The notes beneath the pieces are model-generated. The model saw nothing but the letters and a program-made list of their open reading frames with translations, did not search any database and had not been told where the DNA came from. The translations under genes and the position numbers were made by a program. This document shows positions 10,630-19,844 of a stretch of DNA of 64,000 nucleotides, one piece after another. This DNA is from Ectothiorhodospiraceae bacterium (GTDB lineage: Bacteria; Pseudomonadota; Gammaproteobacteria; Nitrococcales; Aquisalimonadaceae), in assembly GCA_020831885.1 (NCBI GenBank), contig JAFIFU010000001.1, positions 186,001-250,000 of the forward strand. Direction: 5' to 3'. Positions within the stretch are counted from its first letter, which is position 1, and every line of letters begins with the position of its first letter.

Positions 10630-12879
10630 TCAGTGTTCGTTTAGCAACAGCCGAACCCCGGCACCCGTCGTTTGGTGACGCACGGTGCCGATGATCCGGG
10701 CCTCACGGTATCCCAGTGCCTGGAGGGCATGGAGGCATGCCTCGGCGCGGTCCGCAGGCACGCCGGCCAGCAACCCGCCGGCTGTCTGTGGGTCGAACAA
10801 CAGCGGATAGGCCGGGTGTTCCATCGCCTTTTCCCGGTCGTGCAGCCAGGCTGAATTGCGTGTGTTCGCCTCGTGCAGGGAACTGAGCAGCCCGCTTCCG
10901 CTGGTTTCAAGGGCGCCATCAAGCCAGGGCAGCGCGTCCAGCCGGAGCTCTGCGGTCAGCCCTGTCTTCCGCGTCATCTCCAGCAGATGCCCCAGCAGGC
11001 CGAAGCCGGTGACGTCGGTGCAGGCGGTGGCACCGTGCCCCCGCAGGCATTGGGCAGCCAGCCGGCTGGACTGGCGCATGCAGTTCAGCGCCGCATCGAT
11101 CCATCGGCCCCGGGCCCGCAACTGCGCATGCGCCGCCAGCAGCGTGCCCGTTCCCAGCGGTTTGGTGAGAATGAGCGCATCGCCCGCGCCGAGCCCCTGC
11201 TTGCGCAGCAGGGCCTCCGGCCGGTCCTCTGCCAAACCGTTTACGGCAAAGCCCAGCGCCAGTTCCCGGCCTTCACCGCTGTGGCCGCCGATGAGGGCGC
11301 AATCCGCCTCGTTCAGCACCTCCAGTGCGCCACTCATCATCTGCAACAGCGTATCCGCGACCTTGTCCGGTGGACCATGGGGCACGGTGGCCACGGCACT
11401 TGCGGAATGGGGTTCGGCGCCCATGGCGTAGATGTCCCCAAGCGCATGGTTGGCCGTGATCTGGCCGAAGGTGAAGGGATCGTGGATGAAGGCACGGAAG
11501 AAGTCCACCGTCTGCAGCAGGAGTCGGTCCGGCGGCACCCGAAGCGCCGCGGCATCATCGCTTTCCGCCAAGGCGGCGATGACGCCGGAGCGCTGCACCG
11601 GCTTCAACTGGTGCAGCACGTACCGCAACGCATCCTCACCGACCTTGGCGCCGCAGCCACCGCAGCGCATCTCCTCTGGGTGCTCCCCGGGGCCTGATGC
11701 GCCTGCTGTCATGCGGCCCGGGACGGTGGGGTCGAAGCGGGCCATAAAACGCCGGTCGATGTGGTCCTTCCAGCGCCAGACCCACCGCCCGGCCAGCATC
11801 AAGCGGCCCCGGGACGCCACCGCATAACGGTCGCCGGTGCTGATCAGGGCAAGCCACTTCCGTTGTGGTCGGTATCGGCGGACCACCCGTCCCTGGATCA
11901 GCCGCCGCAGATTGTCCGCCAGGACCCGGCCCTGGCGCACCGCGAACACGCCGGCCTTCTCCCGGGGATGTCCCTCCATGCTGGCCACATCGCCCGCGGC
12001 GAATATCCGGGGGTCGGAGAGGGATTGCAGGGTGTCGGTGACGCGGATGAAACCGTGCGCATCCAGTTGCAATCCCGTTTGCCGCAGCCAGTCCGCACCA
12101 CCGGCATGGGTCACCCAGACGATTTCGTCGGCGGCCAGATGAAAGCCGTTGCCGGCCCGCAGACATCCGGACGACACCCGTTCCACCCGCGCCTGGCAGT
12201 GCAGGACAATGCCACGTTGTTGCAGGATCCGCCGGAAGTGCCGGCGGACGGCCGCGTTATGGCTTGGGAGGATGTCGGTTTCGGCACTGAACAGATGTAC
12301 TTCCAACTGGTCAGGGGCGTGCCCCCGGGTGATCAACTCCTGCCGCAAACGGTATTGCATGGCCAGGGCCAGCTCCACACCACCGGCCCCGGCGCCCACG
12401 ACGGCGATGCGAATCGGCCCGGTGTGTTGCTGTACGCGCTGCAACAGGGTCTGCCAGCTCTGGTTGAACCGATGGATGGGCTTGACCGGAATAACGTGTC
12501 GCGCGGCGCCCGGTACCTGGCTCACCCGGGGGGCGGAGCCGGTATTGATGGATGCCAGGTCGTAGGGGACCGGCGGGCGGCCGCGGCACAGGATGCTGCC
12601 GGCCTTCCGGTCCAGTCCCACCGCCTCGGCACGGTAGAACCTCGCGCCGGCGAACTCGGCCAGGCGGCTGAGATCGATGTGGACGTCGTCGTACGTGTAG
12701 TGGCCGGCAATGTAGCCGGGCAGCATGCCGGAATAGGGGGTGTGCGTATCCCGGCATATCAGGGTCAGGCGCACTCCGGGCATGGGCCGCATGCCGAAAG
12801 CGCGCAATACCTGAACGTGACTGTGGCCGCCGCCCACCAGCACGATGTCCTTTTCCACCGGATGATCGGACGCCTGCAT
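10630..12879 (-). CDS. selD: NADH-dehydrogenase-like oxidoreductase fused to selenide water dikinase
   Basis: A 749-residue fusion. Residues 1 to about 390 form an FAD/NAD(P) oxidoreductase of the Ndh-2 type, with VGGGHSHVQVL near the start, [14 protein letters not shown] as the second dinucleotide site, and FAAGDVASM. From about 400 to the end it is SelD, which makes selenophosphate from selenide and ATP. The key motif RCGGCGAK holds Cys409 and Lys412, equivalent to E. coli Cys17 and Lys20. The active site uses Cys, not Sec. Such fusions are known in other bacteria and are thought to couple redox chemistry to selenium supply (inference). tRNA-Sec lies 60 bp upstream. Confidence 0.95.
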   Translation of the reverse strand: MQASDHPVEKDIVLVGGGHSHVQVLRAFGMRPMPGVRLTLICRDTHTPYSGMLPGYIAGHYTYDDVHIDLSRLAEFAGARFYRAEAVGLDRKAGSILCRGRPPVPYDLASINTGSAPRVSQVPGAARHVIPVKPIHRFNQSWQTLLQRVQQHTGPIRIAVVGAGAGGVELALAMQYRLRQELITRGHAPDQLEVHLFSAETDILPSHNAAVRRHFRRILQQRGIVLHCQARVERVSSGCLRAGNGFHLAADEIVWVTHAGGADWLRQTGLQLDAHGFIRVTDTLQSLSDPRIFAAGDVASMEGHPREKAGVFAVRQGRVLADNLRRLIQGRVVRRYRPQRKWLALISTGDRYAVASRGRLMLAGRWVWRWKDHIDRRFMARFDPTVPGRMTAGASGPGEHPEEMRCGGCGAKVGEDALRYVLHQLKPVQRSGVIAALAESDDAAALRVPPDRLLLQTVDFFRAFIHDPFTFGQITANHALGDIYAMGAEPHSASAVATVPHGPPDKVADTLLQMMSGALEVLNEADCALIGGHSGEGRELALGFAVNGLAEDRPEALLRKQGLGAGDALILTKPLGTGTLLAAHAQLRARGRWIDAALNCMRQSSRLAAQCLRGHGATACTDVTGFGLLGHLLEMTRKTGLTAELRLDALPWLDGALETSGSGLLSSLHEANTRNSAWLHDREKAMEHPAYPLLFDPQTAGGLLAGVPADRAEACLHALQALGYREARIIGTVRHQTTGAGVRLLLNEH

Positions 12880-12939: not shown

Positions 12940-13035
12940 TGGCGGAAGGGGGTGGGAGTCGAACCCACCAGACGCGCCTGGCGCGTCTCACCGGATTTGA
13001 AGTCCGGGCGCTCCACCGGGAAGCGATCCCCTTCC
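12940..13035 (-). tRNA. selC: tRNA-Sec (anticodon UCA)
   Basis: The minus-strand product is 96 nt including an encoded CCA. It has the 8-bp acceptor stem GGAAGGGG/CCCCTTCC, the anticodon loop ACTTCAAA with UCA, a long variable arm (GACGCGCC/GGCGCGTC) and the T arm GGTTCGACTCC. The long acceptor and variable arms and the UCA anticodon are diagnostic of bacterial selenocysteine tRNA. It lies between selB and the selD fusion, so it may be cut from the same transcript. No clear promoter of its own was seen. Confidence 0.97.
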
Positions 13036-13145: not shown

Positions 13146-15041
13146 TCAGCGCAGGCCGCGCCGTTCGCCGTCGAAACGGGTGATGCCCAGGCGGTCCAGG
13201 TGCTCCAGGACCTGGATGGTCAGATTGCGGCCGATGCCGCTGCGGTCCCGGTAACCGGCCGCATCGAACAGCCTATCCGGGGATTCCTCGGCCAGTTCTC
13301 TGGCCAGATCCGCCAGCGTCTCCACAGTTTCTGGCAGAAAATAGCGGTTGGGCGCAACCCGTTCCAGATAGCCCAGGCGGCTCAGTGACTGCAGTCGCTC
13401 CATCAGCGCCTGGCGCTCCAGTCCCAGTTGATCGGCAAGCTCGCCGACCAGGGGCGGCCGCAGTCCGGCGCCGCGTAGTGCGTGGGTGACCGCCTCCAAC
13501 AGGGCCGCATCCGCGGTTTCCAGGCGTGGCCGGTGATCGGGCAGGCGCAGGTTGAAGCCCTGCCGCACCAGGAGCGACTTCTCCAGCAGTGCCCGGATCG
13601 CCGCCCGGACCAGGGCGCCGGGGAGCGTCCGTCCCAGACGCTCGGCCAGAGCGGATTCGCCAGGGCCGACACTGGCGGGGTCCAGCGCGTGCCAGCGGGC
13701 TACCGCGTTCAGCACCTCCCTCTGGACCTCCTGCCAGCGGTTTTCCGTGATCAGCAACGGCCCCTCCCGGGTGGCAATCCGCAAGCCGGGTGTTGCGTCG
13801 GCGAGCGCCGCTGCCTGTTCCGGCGTGAGGTTCCTGGTGCGGACGAAGGCCGGCAGAAAAATGCCCGTTGGGCTGAGTTCCAGCAGCGAGCCAAGCGCCC
13901 GGGCGTGGTCCGCGTCGGCCAGTGCCTCCAGTAGGGACAGCCGCTCCGGTCGACCGCGCCCGCGACGGGGAGGGGTCGGATCGATCACCTTGCCGCCGCC
14001 CAGGGTCCGCCAGGCGGACTGATCCCGGATGATGAAACGGTCACCATGCAGGCCATGGATCGGCCGCTCCAGCACCAGCTGTGCCAGGCCGCGCTCACCG
14101 ACGCCCAGGCTGTGGCGGCCCAGCAGTGCAACCCTTGCGGTGACATCAGCCGCACCCAGGTGCAGATGGACCGGTGTCCAGTGTTTCAGGGCGCGCTGCT
14201 CGGACGGCAGCAGCCCAAGCTCCACGTCCAGTCGCCGGGTGACCAGTTCCGCGGGCTCGGCCACGACCCAGTCGCCGCGACGGATCGCCTCCCGGTCCAA
14301 CCGGCTGCCGGACAGGTTCAGGGCGCAGCGTTCGCCGGCGACCACCTGGTCCCGCCGCTGTCCCTGTCCTCGCAAATCCCGCACGCGGGCGGGTATGCCG
14401 CCGGGGACCACGCGCAGATGCTCGTCCTTTCGGACGCTACCGTCGAATACCGTGCCGGTGACCACAAGACCCGCCCCATCCACGGTGAAGCAGCGGTCCA
14501 CCGCCAGGCGGAAATTGCCGTCGGCCTTCCTCCAGGGGAGCGTTTCGCTGCACCGGGTCAGATGCCGTTTCAGTGCATCCATCCCGGCTCCGGTCTGCGC
14601 GGAGACAGGAAAAACAGGCGCACCCGTCAGGCAGGTGCCTTCCACCAGCTCCGGGATCCCTTCCGTCACCTGCAGCAACCGTTCCCCACTGACCCGATCC
14701 GTCTTGCTCACCACCACGGCGCCATGACGCAGGCCGAGCAGATGGAGTATCGCCAGATGCTCCCGGGTCTGGGGCATGGGCCCGTCATCGGCGGCGATCA
14801 CCAGCAGCACGAAATCCACGGCGGCCACACCGGCCAGCATGTTACGGATGAAGCGTTCGTGTCCCGGGACGTCCACGAAGCCGATGCGCCGCAGCGACGG
14901 GCCGTCCATGTAGGCGAATCCCAGGTCGATGGTCAGCCCGCGACGCTTCTCTTCCTCCGTCCGATCCGTGTCGACGCCTGTCAGCGCCCGCACCAGCGCG
15001 GTCTTGCCGTGATCCACATGGCCTGCGGTTGCCACGATCAT
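13146..15041 (-). CDS. selB: Selenocysteine-specific elongation factor
   Basis: A 631-residue GTPase that carries Sec-tRNA-Sec to the ribosome at UGA codons next to a SECIS hairpin. GTP-binding motifs are GHVDHGKT (7-14), [14 protein letters not shown] and VSKTD. EF-Tu-like domains II and III follow, and the C-terminal third is a series of winged helices that in known SelB bind the SECIS RNA. The ATG at 15041 overlaps the selA stop as ATGA. Length is close to E. coli SelB (614). It is the expected partner of selC and of the two UGA-containing genes upstream. Confidence 0.96.
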
Positions 15042-16420
15042 GGTGCCAAGGGCTCCGTGAACTGCGCCCGGAACGTCTTCTCGTCTTCCAGGCAGCGCAG
15101 ATCCAGCAGCACCGCACCACTCCTGATGCGGCCGATCACGGGGACCGGGCGTCGGCGGAGGGTTTCCGCCAGGCTCAGCGCCGACGTGGCTGCCGGGCGC
15201 AGGCGCAGGGCGACGCTGGGCAGCAGGTCCACCGGCAGCGACCCACTCCCTATCTGGCTCTGCACGGAAATCACATCCACCCGCCCGGCGGCACCCAGCC
15301 AGTGGGCGAGCACCGGTTGCAGCCGTTCCGCCAGCGTCCGGATCTCGTCGGTGCCCCGCGTCAGCAGCCGCAGTGCCGGTACACGCTCCGCCAGGTGGTC
15401 CGGATCGGCACACAGGCGCAGCACCGCCTCCAGGGCCGCCAGGGTAAGCTTGTCGCAGCGCATGGCGCGCTTCATCGGGTTCCGCCGGATGCGGCCGATC
15501 AGATCCGCACGGCCGGCGATGATGCCCGCCTGTGGCCCTCCCAGCAGTTTGTCCCCGCTGAAGGTGACCAGGTCGGCGCCACGGGTGAGGGTGTCCATCG
15601 GGGTGGGCTCCGCCGGCAGGCCGAAGCGGGTCAGGTCGGCGAGGGAGCCGCTCCCGAGATCCACCAGAAACGGCACGCCCTGCTTCCGGCATAAATCGGC
15701 CAGGGCGGATTCATCCGCCTCGGCGGTGAATCCCTGGACCTGGTAGTTGCTGGTGTGTGCCTTGAGGACCAGGGCGGGCTTCACCGTGTCCATGGCCTCG
15801 GCGAAGTCATGGACGTGGGTGCGGTTGGTGGTGCCCACTTCCTGCAGCCGGCAGCCCGCGCGGCGCATAATGTCCGGTAGCCGGAATGAGCCGCCGATCT
15901 CGATCAGCTCACCCCGGGAGACCAGCACACGGCGTCGCAGGGCCAGGCTGTTCAGGGCCAGCAGGACGGCGGCGGCGTTGTTGTTGACCACGGTTGCCGC
16001 CTCCGCACCGGTCAGCCGGCACAGCCAGCGCTCCACGTGGACATCCCGGTCGCCGCGCCTGCCCCGTTCCAGATCGTATTCCAGGTTCGAGGCTCCGGCG
16101 GCGATCCGGGTCATCGCGGCGATTGCTTCCGGGGGCAGGGGGGCGCGGCCGAGATTGGTATGCAGCACGGTGCCGGTGAGATTGAACACCGGCTTCAGGG
16201 ATGGGGATATCTGTGCCTGCAAGGCGGTGGTGATGCCATCTGTGATGGCGGTATCGGTGCAGGGGCGCTGGCCGCGGCGGCACTCTTCCAGGGTTCTGCG
16301 CACGGCCTCCACGGTCAGGGGGCGGCCATGGGTCTGCAGGAGCGCCGCCACCACCGGCCAGGCCAGTATACGGTCCACCGACGGCGGCCGGGGATACGTC
16401 GACGGGTTGCGGGAGCTCAT
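15038..16420 (-). CDS. selA: L-seryl-tRNA(Sec) selenium transferase
   Basis: A 460-residue PLP enzyme that converts Ser-tRNA-Sec to Sec-tRNA-Sec using selenophosphate. The PLP lysine is Lys291 in SGDKLLGGPQAG, near E. coli Lys295. NLTGTVLHTNLGRAP, EYDLERGRRGDR and VNNNAAAVLL match conserved SelA segments. The N-terminal tRNA-binding region (about 1-70) is present, so this is the long bacterial form. It begins 132 bp after the UGSC gene in the same direction and overlaps selB by 4 bp. A 7-bp stem-loop lies in the gap before it. Confidence 0.97.
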   Translation of the reverse strand: MSSRNPSTYPRPPSVDRILAWPVVAALLQTHGRPLTVEAVRRTLEECRRGQRPCTDTAITDGITTALQAQISPSLKPVFNLTGTVLHTNLGRAPLPPEAIAAMTRIAAGASNLEYDLERGRRGDRDVHVERWLCRLTGAEAATVVNNNAAAVLLALNSLALRRRVLVSRGELIEIGGSFRLPDIMRRAGCRLQEVGTTNRTHVHDFAEAMDTVKPALVLKAHTSNYQVQGFTAEADESALADLCRKQGVPFLVDLGSGSLADLTRFGLPAEPTPMDTLTRGADLVTFSGDKLLGGPQAGIIAGRADLIGRIRRNPMKRAMRCDKLTLAALEAVLRLCADPDHLAERVPALRLLTRGTDEIRTLAERLQPVLAHWLGAAGRVDVISVQSQIGSGSLPVDLLPSVALRLRPAATSALSLAETLRRRPVPVIGRIRSGAVLLDLRCLEDEKTFRAQFTEPLAP

Positions 16421-16552: not shown

Positions 16553-17077
16553 TCAGGTGGCGCGCAGGGCACCCAGGATGGCATCAAGCGCGTCATCGGC
16601 CAACTGCCGCATCTCCGCGTCGGTGCGGTCCTGAATCGGATGGGCGACAAACACCATCGCCGGATCGAAACCCAGCGAACGGCTCTGCATCTCTGCGGCC
16701 TGGACGAACTCCGTTGATGCAACGCCAACTCCGGGTATGCCTCGACCTTCCAGGTCTGCGATGTCATGCATACAGCACGACGTGCAGGAGCCTCAGTCGG
16801 CCAGACCTTCCACCACCAGATCGCATTCCGCGGCAATCTGCTGGCGCAGGGCCGTGGGGGCAACCCGGGTGAACGTGGGTTTCCGGTAGCGCCGTACCTG
16901 AATGCCCCGGGACTGCAGCAAGGCGTCGACACGGTCTAGGAACACGTCGCCGCGGGCCTTGGAGATGTCCAGCAGGCCGACGGTGAGCCCATCCAGGCTC
17001 GCCGGTCGCGCCAGCCGCTCCCGGGCCGCCGGGGACCGTTCCGACGTCGGGTCCAGCAGGTGTAGATCTGCGTTCAT
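16553..17077 (-). CDS. UGSC-motif selenoprotein (in-frame UGA read as Sec95)
   Basis: A 174-residue protein if the TGA at 16793-16795 is read as selenocysteine. The frame before (94 residues, ending VVEGLAD) and after (GSCTSCCMHDIADLEGRG) runs on without a shift, giving Sec-Gly-Ser-Cys. UGSC proteins were described earlier from ocean metagenome surveys of selenoproteins, and their function is unknown. A SECIS-type hairpin follows the UGA (16756-16787). The gene ends in a normal TGA at 16553-16555. Its ATG overlaps the stop of the thioredoxin-fusion gene (ATGA). The Sec and neighbouring cysteines point to a thiol/selenol redox role (inference). Confidence 0.88.
16756..16787 (-). promoter_or_regulatory. 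bSECIS hairpin of the UGSC gene
   Basis: Counting from the base after UGA, nt 6-10 pair with 32 and 34-37, and nt 12-18 (GUCGUGC) pair with 24-30 (GCAUGAC) including one G-U pair. The apical loop is UGUAU at 19-23, with G as its second base. The position, 18 nt from UGA, and the loop G fit the published bacterial SECIS rules. Folding was done by eye. Confidence 0.7.
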
Positions 17078-18540
17078 CCAGTGATCTCCCTGGTAACGGG
17101 CGATGAGCCGACCGGGCCGGAGGCGGCCCAGCCGGCGATCACCGCGGAAAACAGACCGGCGGTGCCGCCGGCCCGAACGATCAGCAACCCCCCGGGGCGG
17201 AACTTGGGAATCCTCTGGCCAGCGGCGCTGGCCGGCAGGCCTTCCGCGATGCCGTCAGCCCCCGCCAGCAGTTCGTCGCCCGGCATGAGCAGTAAACGTT
17301 CCAGTTCTTCCCGTAGCCGCTGCCGCGACCAGCCGGCCTCGCTGAACACGCGATGATGCTCCGGCGATACCACGAGCGTGGCGTCGCCGGCCATGGCCAT
17401 CTTGGTGTTGTCCACCGCGCGCAGCGAGTTGGCGAAGCTGCGCGCCAGGGACTCCGGTGTGCGGGATTTCTGGTCCACGATGCCCTGCACACCCTCGCCG
17501 GCAAACAGCGTGACGGTGGACGCCTCGGGCGGAAAGCCCCGCTCCACGGACAGGGAGCCCCAGTCGCTGTCTTCTGCTTCCGCGAAACAGAACGTGTACT
17601 TGCCGGGGTTGCCCAGGGTGGCCCGGTCGATCTCGCCCGGGCGGCCGCCCCCCACATTGCGGATAACCAGTTGCAGTGCCCGGCCGATGGTTGCGTTGGC
17701 GCGGTTGCCCTGGCCCAGGGCATTGACCCCGGAGTTCATGCCGATGGCCCGGGTGATTGGCCCGTTCACGATCACCATCGGCCCGGCGAACATGGTGGTG
17801 CAAAGCAGGCCGTGCATGCCGAATTCCTCGGTCAGGGCCGCTTCCACGGCGGCGATGACCACAGGCAGGTATTCCGGTTTGCAGCCGGCCATCACGGCGT
17901 TGATGGCGACTTTCTCGACGGTGCAGGGAGCCAGATCCGGGGGTACCTCCCCCAGATTCTCGGATGGTGCGCGATGCGTGCCCTGGAGCATGCGGAGGAC
18001 CCGCTCCCGGGTTGGCGGCACAACCGGAAGACCGTCCGTCCAGCCCCGCTCGTAGCAGGCCTCCATCACGTCCTCGGCATCACCGAGATCGATCTCCCGC
18101 GAACGCAGCAGACTCCGGTCAAAGCGGGCGGCGAGCTTGTCCGCCATCCCCGGATCCTGGGTCTTCGAGCCGCAGCCAGGCCGCGTCTCCGGCAGCTCGG
18201 CGCCCAACGGTTGCTGGCCACTCAGTGTCTGCCAGTCGCCGCGATGCCATCCGTAGGTGCGTCCCACCTCCCGACCGTTCTCCACCCGGATCAGCGTGGG
18301 CACGATTTCCACGTCCAACTGCCAGGACGTTTCCAGGCTCGCATCATGAACGACCTTGGGCAGGCCGTTGCCGTAAGCGGGGTCGTCCTGACTGTACACC
18401 GTGAGTGGCAGCGGTCCGTCCGCCAGCTCGTGCAGCACGGGCTCGATCAGTGTGCAGGTGGGGCAATCGCGCTTGGCGATGACGATGAGGCCGTCGGGCA
18501 GGGCGGGCACGGGCGAATCCTCAGTGACAGGAGAAGACAT
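17074..18540 (-). CDS. Thioredoxin-fold domain fused to a large UGSC-associated domain
   Basis: A 488-residue protein of unknown function. Residues 1 to about 110 look thioredoxin-like: RDCPTCTLIEP near residue 26 gives the CxxC motif, and IVPTLI gives the cis-Pro loop. A linker with RPGCGSKTQ (a Cys-Gly-Ser) follows. The remaining 340 residues have the motifs TDGLPVVPPT, INAVMAGCKPEYLPVV, VIVNGPI, NSGVNALGQGNRANATIGRA and PGKYTFCFAE. They are Gly-rich and may bind a substrate or cofactor, but no enzyme class is evident. The gene overlaps the UGSC gene by ATGA and lies 90 bp after the GrdB-like gene, so the three probably act together. ATG 18540 is preferred over a TTG just upstream. Confidence 0.8.
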   Translation of the reverse strand: MSSPVTEDSPVPALPDGLIVIAKRDCPTCTLIEPVLHELADGPLPLTVYSQDDPAYGNGLPKVVHDASLETSWQLDVEIVPTLIRVENGREVGRTYGWHRGDWQTLSGQQPLGAELPETRPGCGSKTQDPGMADKLAARFDRSLLRSREIDLGDAEDVMEACYERGWTDGLPVVPPTRERVLRMLQGTHRAPSENLGEVPPDLAPCTVEKVAINAVMAGCKPEYLPVVIAAVEAALTEEFGMHGLLCTTMFAGPMVIVNGPITRAIGMNSGVNALGQGNRANATIGRALQLVIRNVGGGRPGEIDRATLGNPGKYTFCFAEAEDSDWGSLSVERGFPPEASTVTLFAGEGVQGIVDQKSRTPESLARSFANSLRAVDNTKMAMAGDATLVVSPEHHRVFSEAGWSRQRLREELERLLLMPGDELLAGADGIAEGLPASAAGQRIPKFRPGGLLIVRAGGTAGLFSAVIAGWAASGPVGSSPVTREITG

Positions 18541-18629
18541 CAATCAGAGCCTAGCATACGCCTGAAACGAAATGCATGGCCTGGCAGGGGCGGCCAATGC
18601 CACGGGGACAGGCTGTGGATCCGGGTGCG

Positions 18630-19844
18630 TCATAGACCGAGTCGCACCCGTTGCTCAGCGGGGATCAACTGGCCCCCGGCCACCGCGCGAAGTATCTTGT
18701 CGTCCGAGGCCATTGCCGTGGCCCGCAGGCGGATCAGCACCTGGGCCGCGGTGGTTGTGTCCCAGAACCAGTGCTGCAATTGACGACTGGAAGGCCGTCC
18801 CCCCATGGACGCGGCCTCCAGATACTGCGCCTTCAGGTCGTCCGCCGCCAGCCGCATGGCGATGGCCAGGCGCTGTTCCGGCATCGGGTTCTCCGGCACC
18901 GTGCCGCTGGCCATGGCACAGAGAAATTCGGTGATGCGCTCGGCAGGCAAGGCGCTGTTACCGACCGTGGTTCGCCCGCGGCTTGCCACCGCTTGCCGGT
19001 AAACAGGGGCGATGGCCTCCTGCTCGGCCGCAAGGGCATCCCGCAGGGAGGCCGGGTTCCTGGATCCGTTCGGTCCCGCCGGCAGCGCTGGCGGTTGCCA
19101 GGCCGGGTCATCGGCGAAGCCGGCGGCCTGCCGTGGGAAGTCCATGATCAAACCAGGCTCCCGAACCTGCTCCAGCAGTCCTAACGCCTGGCTTAGCACC
19201 AGCCGCTGGAACGCCCCGTCACCGGGTTCACCCAGAGGGCGACCCAGCTCGAAAGGCACCCACAGCGTACGGGGCGGCCGGATCCGCTCGCTGTGTGGCC
19301 GGAAAAGACTGATGCAGATCGTGGCGATGCCCGCTGACTCCAGGTAATGCCCCAGCGCGCTCACGGCGCGCGTGCAATGGGGTCAGACGGGGAGCAGGAC
19401 GGCTGCCGTCACCCCTTGATCGCGGAAGTCCCGGACCAGTTCCTCGGCGTGGGGTTGCATCAGTTCCGGGTCGGTTGCGCCCATGAAGCTGTAATGGGTG
19501 TCCGCGGCATTCCCGATCAGGTCCTGTTCCGCGAGTTCCCGCAGCCGCTGCCGTGGAAGCATGACTTCCACGTCCTGTTGGAAGCCGGTCCGATCGAAGT
19601 TGACCGAAACGTGCGTGATCAGCAGGTCTTCGTCCCCGGTCTCTTTCGCAATACTGCGGAAGTCTTTCGCATTCGGTTTGAAGGGCGGTTCCCCCCGCAC
19701 GCTCAAGCCCGCCGTGGAAACCAATGCGACGGTGTGCTGGAGCAAGGGCCGGGGCGGTACCAGGGCCGTGGACCCGAATGTCGGGCATGACAGCGCGAGC
19801 ATGTTCTCCCGCAGCACCGGGGGCAGATCGTCCAGTCGGGCCAT
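18630..19844 (-). CDS. GrdB-like selenoprotein (in-frame UGA read as Sec154)
   Basis: A 404-residue protein of the glycine/sarcosine/betaine/D-proline reductase selenoprotein B family if the TGA at 19383-19385 is decoded as Sec. The frame is uninterrupted on both sides: residues before end AAVLLPV, and the Sec is followed by PHCT, giving the UxxCT motif of the family. VALVSTAGL and SFMG are further family-like motifs. Known members cleave a C-N bond reductively through a Sec-bound intermediate; the substrate here is unknown. A GGAGG site precedes the ATG. A SECIS hairpin begins right after the UGA, and the gene ends in an ordinary TGA. Confidence 0.88.
19350..19382 (-). promoter_or_regulatory. 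bSECIS hairpin of the GrdB-like gene
   Basis: Immediately after UGA, nt 1-5 (CCCCA) pair with 29-33 (UGGGG), nt 8 pairs with 28, and nt 11-15 (CGCGC) pair with 23-27 (GCGCG). Unpaired UU and CA bulges lie on the 5' side. The apical loop is GCCGUGA (16-22) with G first. Distance and loop composition fit bacterial SECIS rules. Folding was done by eye. Confidence 0.7.

Follow-up and report, generated by a model that had tools for sequence, protein, structure and literature searches.

A UGSC-family selenoprotein with a near-constant partner domain: a possible thioredoxin-driven reductase remotely related to GrdB and PrdB

Results

Organization of the locus

The window, by which we mean the whole analysed stretch of 64,000 nucleotides from an Ectothiorhodospiraceae bacterium, contains a run of minus-strand genes in which a UGSC selenoprotein gene is preceded by the gene of a thioredoxin-containing partner and by a second selenoprotein gene, and is followed by the machinery for selenocysteine (Sec) insertion. 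The name DGLP, used here for the C-terminal domain of the partner, was coined in this analysis from a conserved motif. In the order of transcription, the features are:

18630..19844, minus strand: PrdB-like selenoprotein gene, 404 aa, motif UPHC, TGA at 19383-19385
19355..19371, minus strand: hairpin GCGCGC-CGUGA-GCGCGC behind the UGA of this second selenoprotein gene
17074..18543, minus strand: partner gene, 488-489 aa, with an N-terminal thioredoxin domain (CPTC) and a C-terminal DGLP domain
18211..18495, minus strand: thioredoxin domain of the partner, about residues 16-110, placed by profile and fold matches
17077..18093, minus strand: DGLP domain of the partner, about residues 150-488, for which neither Pfam nor NCBIfam gave a family
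16553..17077, minus strand: UGSC selenoprotein gene, 174 aa, start ATG 17075-17077, final stop TGA 16553-16555
16793-16795, minus strand: in-frame TGA read as Sec95 (UGSC), with Cys98 three residues further
16763..16781, minus strand: SECIS-like hairpin GUCGUGC-UGUAU-GCAUGAC, with its apical loop 18 nt beyond the UGA
15038..16420, minus strand: selA, L-seryl-tRNA(Sec) selenium transferase (TIGR00474, 555.2 bits)
13146..15041, minus strand: selB, selenocysteine-specific elongation factor (TIGR00475, 414.5 bits)
12940..13035, minus strand: tRNA-Sec (selC), anticodon TCA, 80.1 bits, also called by ARAGORN
10630..12879, minus strand: selD with an N-terminal pyridine nucleotide-disulfide oxidoreductase domain (Ndh-SelD; TIGR03169, 523.5 bits; TIGR00476, 283.5 bits)

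The original prediction, which was made from the letters of the DNA, had described a UGSC gene with a start overlapping its neighbor, in an operon with the full Sec machinery. The overlap is there, as the start of UGSC and the stop of the upstream gene share the four nucleotides ATGA at 17074-17077. SelA, SelB, tRNA-Sec and SelD were likewise all recovered downstream of UGSC on the same strand, in one operon-like run of genes. Absent from that prediction was the PrdB-like selenoprotein gene, which lies upstream of UGSC in the same run; among the stretches from six near relatives (L121-L126), only that of L121, a member of the same genus, has it. A search of the own genome for formate dehydrogenase as a further user of Sec returned eight matches to molybdopterin oxidoreductases, none of them with a stop within the match.

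Identity of the UGSC gene and reading of its internal UGA

The translation of the gene runs through the in-frame TGA as ...VVEGLADUGSCTSCCMHDIADLE..., and the continuous frame that had been predicted over 16793-16795, giving Sec-Gly-Ser-Cys, was correct in its coordinates; the strand, which had not been given, is minus. The UGSC assignment is borne out by single unbroken matches that span the TGA, both to Pfam UGSC PF24696 (150.8 bits against a cut-off of 25) and to NCBIfam NF041046 (157 bits against a cut-off of 125), and the UGSC/CGSC motif of the family is present as U95-G-S-C98. The gene thus shares with the family NF041046/PF24696 a score above both cut-offs, the motif, the length and the Sec site, and the UGSC gene of the window itself shows no difference from it.

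We retrieved relatives from a species-genome collection with an alignment begun downstream of the Sec codon, which kept any bias for TGA over Cys out of the query, and retained the best 80 of at least 579. The codon at the Sec position is TGA in 79 of these 80 and TAA in the remaining one. Among 68 aligned family members, Sec or Cys occupies site 95 in 66, the more distant members having Cys, and Cys98 is likewise present in 66; the two proteins that lack the one residue lack the other as well. An in-frame UGA at a position that is Cys in homologues, as found here, is a criterion for bacterial selenoproteins. Homologues extend past the UGA, with homology unbroken through the codon, so the original prediction stood on this point as it did on Sec/Cys conservation at the site.

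L010 and L013/L016/L133 were omitted from the alignments. L010, returned by the family search, was taken as a false match since its translation reads as a P-type ATPase-like frame, and in L013/L016/L133 the UGSC copy is split across two frames, with a TGA at a second place, and is probably broken. The TAA, at L081:36-38, belongs to one UGSC copy of its genome. The same genome holds a second UGSC copy with TGA together with a tRNA-Sec with anticodon TCA, which disfavors recoding of UAA; a sequencing error, a defective copy or foreign sequence in the metagenome-assembled genome is the likelier source. In PMC5330540, selenoproteins with a UGSC motif are reported from genomes with tRNA-Sec of anticodon CUA.

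Bacterial SECIS elements are recognized by their distance from the UGA and by their loop. In the window the hairpin is conserved, its loop follows 18 nt on, and the loop contains a G. Across 67 distinct sequences, 98.3% of cells are paired, and ten double-change cells were counted, where shuffles, which ignore relatedness, gave 1.6 on average; when the partner strand was slid along as a control, pairing reached at most 53.5%. The outermost pair, both sides of which are third codon positions, is G-C in 52 sequences, A-U in eight and unpaired in seven.

Could the UGA nevertheless be a true stop, separating two short proteins, or mark a gene in decay? Two plasmid homologues have a deposited annotation that stops or splits at the TGA, as this would require; that standard gene callers would split the gene there had been foreseen in the original prediction. 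The unbroken frame and homology over the codon, the TGA in 79 of the 80 best of at least 579 relatives, the Cys that other members have at this site, the conserved and co-varying hairpin, and a gene run that also holds SelA, SelB, SelD and tRNA-Sec make it hardly credible. Judged from its sequence, the gene is a UGSC-family selenoprotein, because it passes the family cut-offs, its TGA recurs in 79 of 80 homologues, the hairpin co-varies and the Sec machinery lies in the same gene run; it is a fresh member of an already described family, and nothing beyond that. Near UGSC, SelA occurs in 27 and SelB in 29 of the best 80 of at least 579 loci, mainly in gamma- and betaproteobacteria, and with these frequencies it looks as if the Sec machinery travels with UGSC.

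The partner and its DGLP domain

A thioredoxin-fold partner had also been predicted, and it proved to be a thioredoxin domain (CPTC) in the upstream gene, the N-terminus of which matches solved thioredoxins both by profile (E 4.5e-4) and by fold (Z 9.9 over 86 residues, rmsd 2.5). For the DGLP domain, no convincing Pfam or NCBIfam family was found among 39 partner members, and ten distant DGLP homologues searched against Pfam returned nothing except UGSC itself, in three fused ones. Foldseek placed class I fumarases at the top for the partner model (E 1.8e-4), with TM-scores near 0.2. This resemblance to the class I fumarase fold can serve as a lead only; a TM-score of this size is too low, and the partner has no sequence family match, so that we rejected its assignment as a class I fumarase.

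In 76 of the 80 best of at least 579 loci, the partner is the next gene upstream of UGSC, in the same orientation; the other four comprise three contig edges (L021, L081, L091) and one locus with a different N-terminus (L046). A DGLP profile was also applied to 14 more distant loci (L002, L003, L011-L015, L106-L112), which include plasmids of haloarchaea and actinomycetes, and in every one of them it hits next to UGSC or in fusion with it. When the search was started from DGLP, UGSC was adjacent or fused in all seven further plasmid regions inspected, out of 24 matching records, two of the seven having a UGSC form without the redox residues. Fusions of UGSC and DGLP that keep the motif were found in L003 (Sec) and L119 (Cys). 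By this distribution DGLP, which the original prediction did not contain, is a near-constant partner domain of UGSC. On the haloarchaeal plasmids L111, L112 and L120, DGLP genes flank UGSC on both sides, and a second, divergent pair of UGSC and DGLP lies at L065:1-1896, about 9 kb from the first on one contig.

The GOS survey (PMC2398784) reports a fusion of UGSC with a domain called Unknown_1. Unknown_1 is probably DGLP, and the fusion would then correspond to those of L003 and L119; the thioredoxin fusion and the linkage to thioredoxin reductase, in contrast, come from the present analysis.

Supply of electrons

A thioredoxin reductase is encoded within 5 kb in eight of 18 loci whose partner is not fused to thioredoxin, against one of 88 thioredoxin-fused loci (Fisher p 1.2e-6), a comparison to be taken as indicative because four of the eight supplied query sequences, the stretches differ in length and relatedness is uncorrected. 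The other ten of the 18 show none within this distance, and TIGR01292 matches five of the eight reductases, just one of them above its curated cut-off. The genes trxB-trxA-DGLP-UGSC are consecutive in Arthrobacter, and trxB lies within the UGSC cluster in Roseovarius and Variovorax SRS16. The electron carrier would be either built into the partner or encoded nearby, which forms part of the reductase-class reading discussed below, a reading that, taken as a whole, falls a little short of an even chance in our estimate.

Relation to GrdB and PrdB

We searched a chosen set of 53 UGSC members, made up of the window gene, 46 of the 76 usable among the best 80 of at least 579 loci, and six more distant ones. 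With E up to 10, 40 of the 53 match GrdB (TIGR01917, best E 8.1e-6) and 36 match GrdF (best E 1.5e-5); where shown, the matches lie around the UxxC motif and partly extend to a His-Pro region. In the reverse direction, 16,085 ORFs from the fetched loci were searched with a UGSC profile, and PrdB-like proteins ranked first among those that are not UGSC (E 0.002, 0.012 and 0.075). Alignment of UGSC with six PrdB-like proteins by hhalign set UxxC on UxxC at E 0.01, with a probability of just 4.1%. The UGSC of the window reaches 11.8 bits with TIGR01917, whose cut-off is 602.2. Because every score lies well under the curated cut-offs of those families, we regard UGSC as neither GrdB nor PrdB, and propose a remote common origin, with UGSC as a one-domain relative.

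PMC13188914 describes GrdB with its UxxCxxC motif, its homologue PrdB and the part played by thioredoxin. UGSC resembles GrdB/GrdF of glycine and sarcosine reductase and PrdB of D-proline reductase in having UxxC with a further Cys (UxxCxxC), in the similar strand-helix-strand surroundings and the His-Pro region of the alignment, and in that thioredoxin is the presumed donor in both. It differs in its 174 aa and in scores far under the curated cut-offs, in its occurrence in genomes of several phyla and of haloarchaea, and in its partner, which is DGLP. None of 39 partners matches Gly_reductase PF09338, of the GrdE/PrdA type, with E up to 10. In the own genome PF09338 has no match either, but the control was equally silent everywhere; the GrdA selenoprotein (PF04723) likewise gave no own-genome match with E up to 10, the control matching in five of 14 cases, none over the cut-off.

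Predicted fold of UGSC

The UGSC model, with pLDDT 92.6, shows five alternating strands and helices and places Sec where the helix following strand 3 begins. Its top structural matches are flavodoxin-, receiver- and PurE-like, so the modeled fold looks flavodoxin-like rather than thioredoxin-like, the match being to a very common shape. The GOS survey suggested a thioredoxin fold (PMC2398784); the order of elements in the model and its top matches disfavor this, although thioredoxin matches may lie outside those listed. Searching PDB sequences with the UGSC profile gave one unconvincing match (E 0.99) and no thioredoxin. We also rejected chain H of 8s7v, from the MCR activation complex, as a relative, since its Z of 11.4 equals the 11.4 of a designed protein and unrelated rows come near 10; the portion of PMC12176620 at hand names Mmp7 and McrC and makes no link to selenium.

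These observations bear on the first guess of the metagenome surveys, which saw in UGSC a general thiol oxidoreductase or peroxidase of a thioredoxin-like kind. The UxxC motif would suit such an enzyme. However, the model has the alternating strand-helix order and the matches just described, the thioredoxin domain is located in the partner instead, the PDB search found no thioredoxin, and the nearest remote sequence relatives are GrdB and PrdB, all of which leave this explanation improbable.

Discussion

We suggest that UGSC is the catalytic redox subunit of a two-part, thioredoxin-driven reductase akin to glycine and proline reductase, a proposal that we consider somewhat more probable than not. 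In such an enzyme, the DGLP domain of the partner would hold a small organic substrate, and the selenolate of Sec95 would attack it, resulting in reductive bond cleavage that follows the Sec chemistry of glycine and D-proline reductase. Cys98 would then resolve the selenium adduct with formation of an Se-S bond, which the thioredoxin domain of the partner (CPTC) could reduce again with electrons coming from NADPH via thioredoxin reductase. At the level of translation, the hairpin inside the coding region would direct SelB and tRNA-Sec to decode the UGA, and the ATGA overlap might couple the translation of UGSC to that of its partner.

A wider claim can be put forward more tentatively, with slightly less than even confidence: UGSC and DGLP may together constitute a reductase class not described before, driven by thioredoxin and in most cases dependent on selenium, which breaks a bond in small organic acids, shares an ancestor with GrdB/PrdB but uses a different substrate subunit, and occurs in several bacterial phyla and in haloarchaea. 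As to the substrate, UGSC is grouped on haloarchaeal plasmids with genes for CoA transferases, for lyases and for TRAP or other transporters, which suggests organic-acid catabolism. No constant catabolic neighbor emerged near 24 thioredoxin-fused loci, where the commonest family among 112 of 131 selected ORFs, the 19 longest being omitted, was that of short-chain dehydrogenases with nine; de novo clustering of neighbor ORFs yielded mainly spurious antisense frames.

It is also conceivable, though in our judgment unlikely, that the module is not a reductase, but that DGLP is a lyase, hydratase or similar enzyme acting on organic acids, for which UGSC and thioredoxin provide a redox switch or protection. 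In two unrelated bacteria, Vibrio europaeus and Sporomusa termitida (L116:6407-8092 and L117:6320-8044), fused UGSC-DGLP proteins read MGTS, Met having replaced Sec/Cys and Ser the Cys, and yet keep DGLP; both are encoded near genes for aconitase X and DUF126. For this reason DGLP may have a chemistry of its own that is not redox, a point that also weighs against the reductase proposal in its simple form, and the fumarases at the top of the Foldseek matches, in spite of their low TM-scores, would agree with it. On the other hand, Sec/Cys95 and Cys98 are retained in 66 of 68 proteins, Sec is retained in 79 of the 80 best of at least 579 relatives, which usually signals catalysis over regulation, and thioredoxin reductase clusters with the module. 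The reductase thus remains our preferred reading.

In the accessible literature on UGSC selenoproteins, our search found no stated function, no relation to GrdB/PrdB and no link to thioredoxin reductase. What the present analysis adds to the original prediction is this relation, the partner domain, the thioredoxin reductase link and the second selenoprotein gene.

In summary, the interest of the locus lies in comparative evidence that yields a testable functional proposal for the UGSC family. A single partner domain, the link to thioredoxin and the relation to GrdB/PrdB make the function of UGSC directly testable, and the compact run of genes in the window, with its own SelA, SelB, tRNA-Sec and SelD, offers a handy starting locus.
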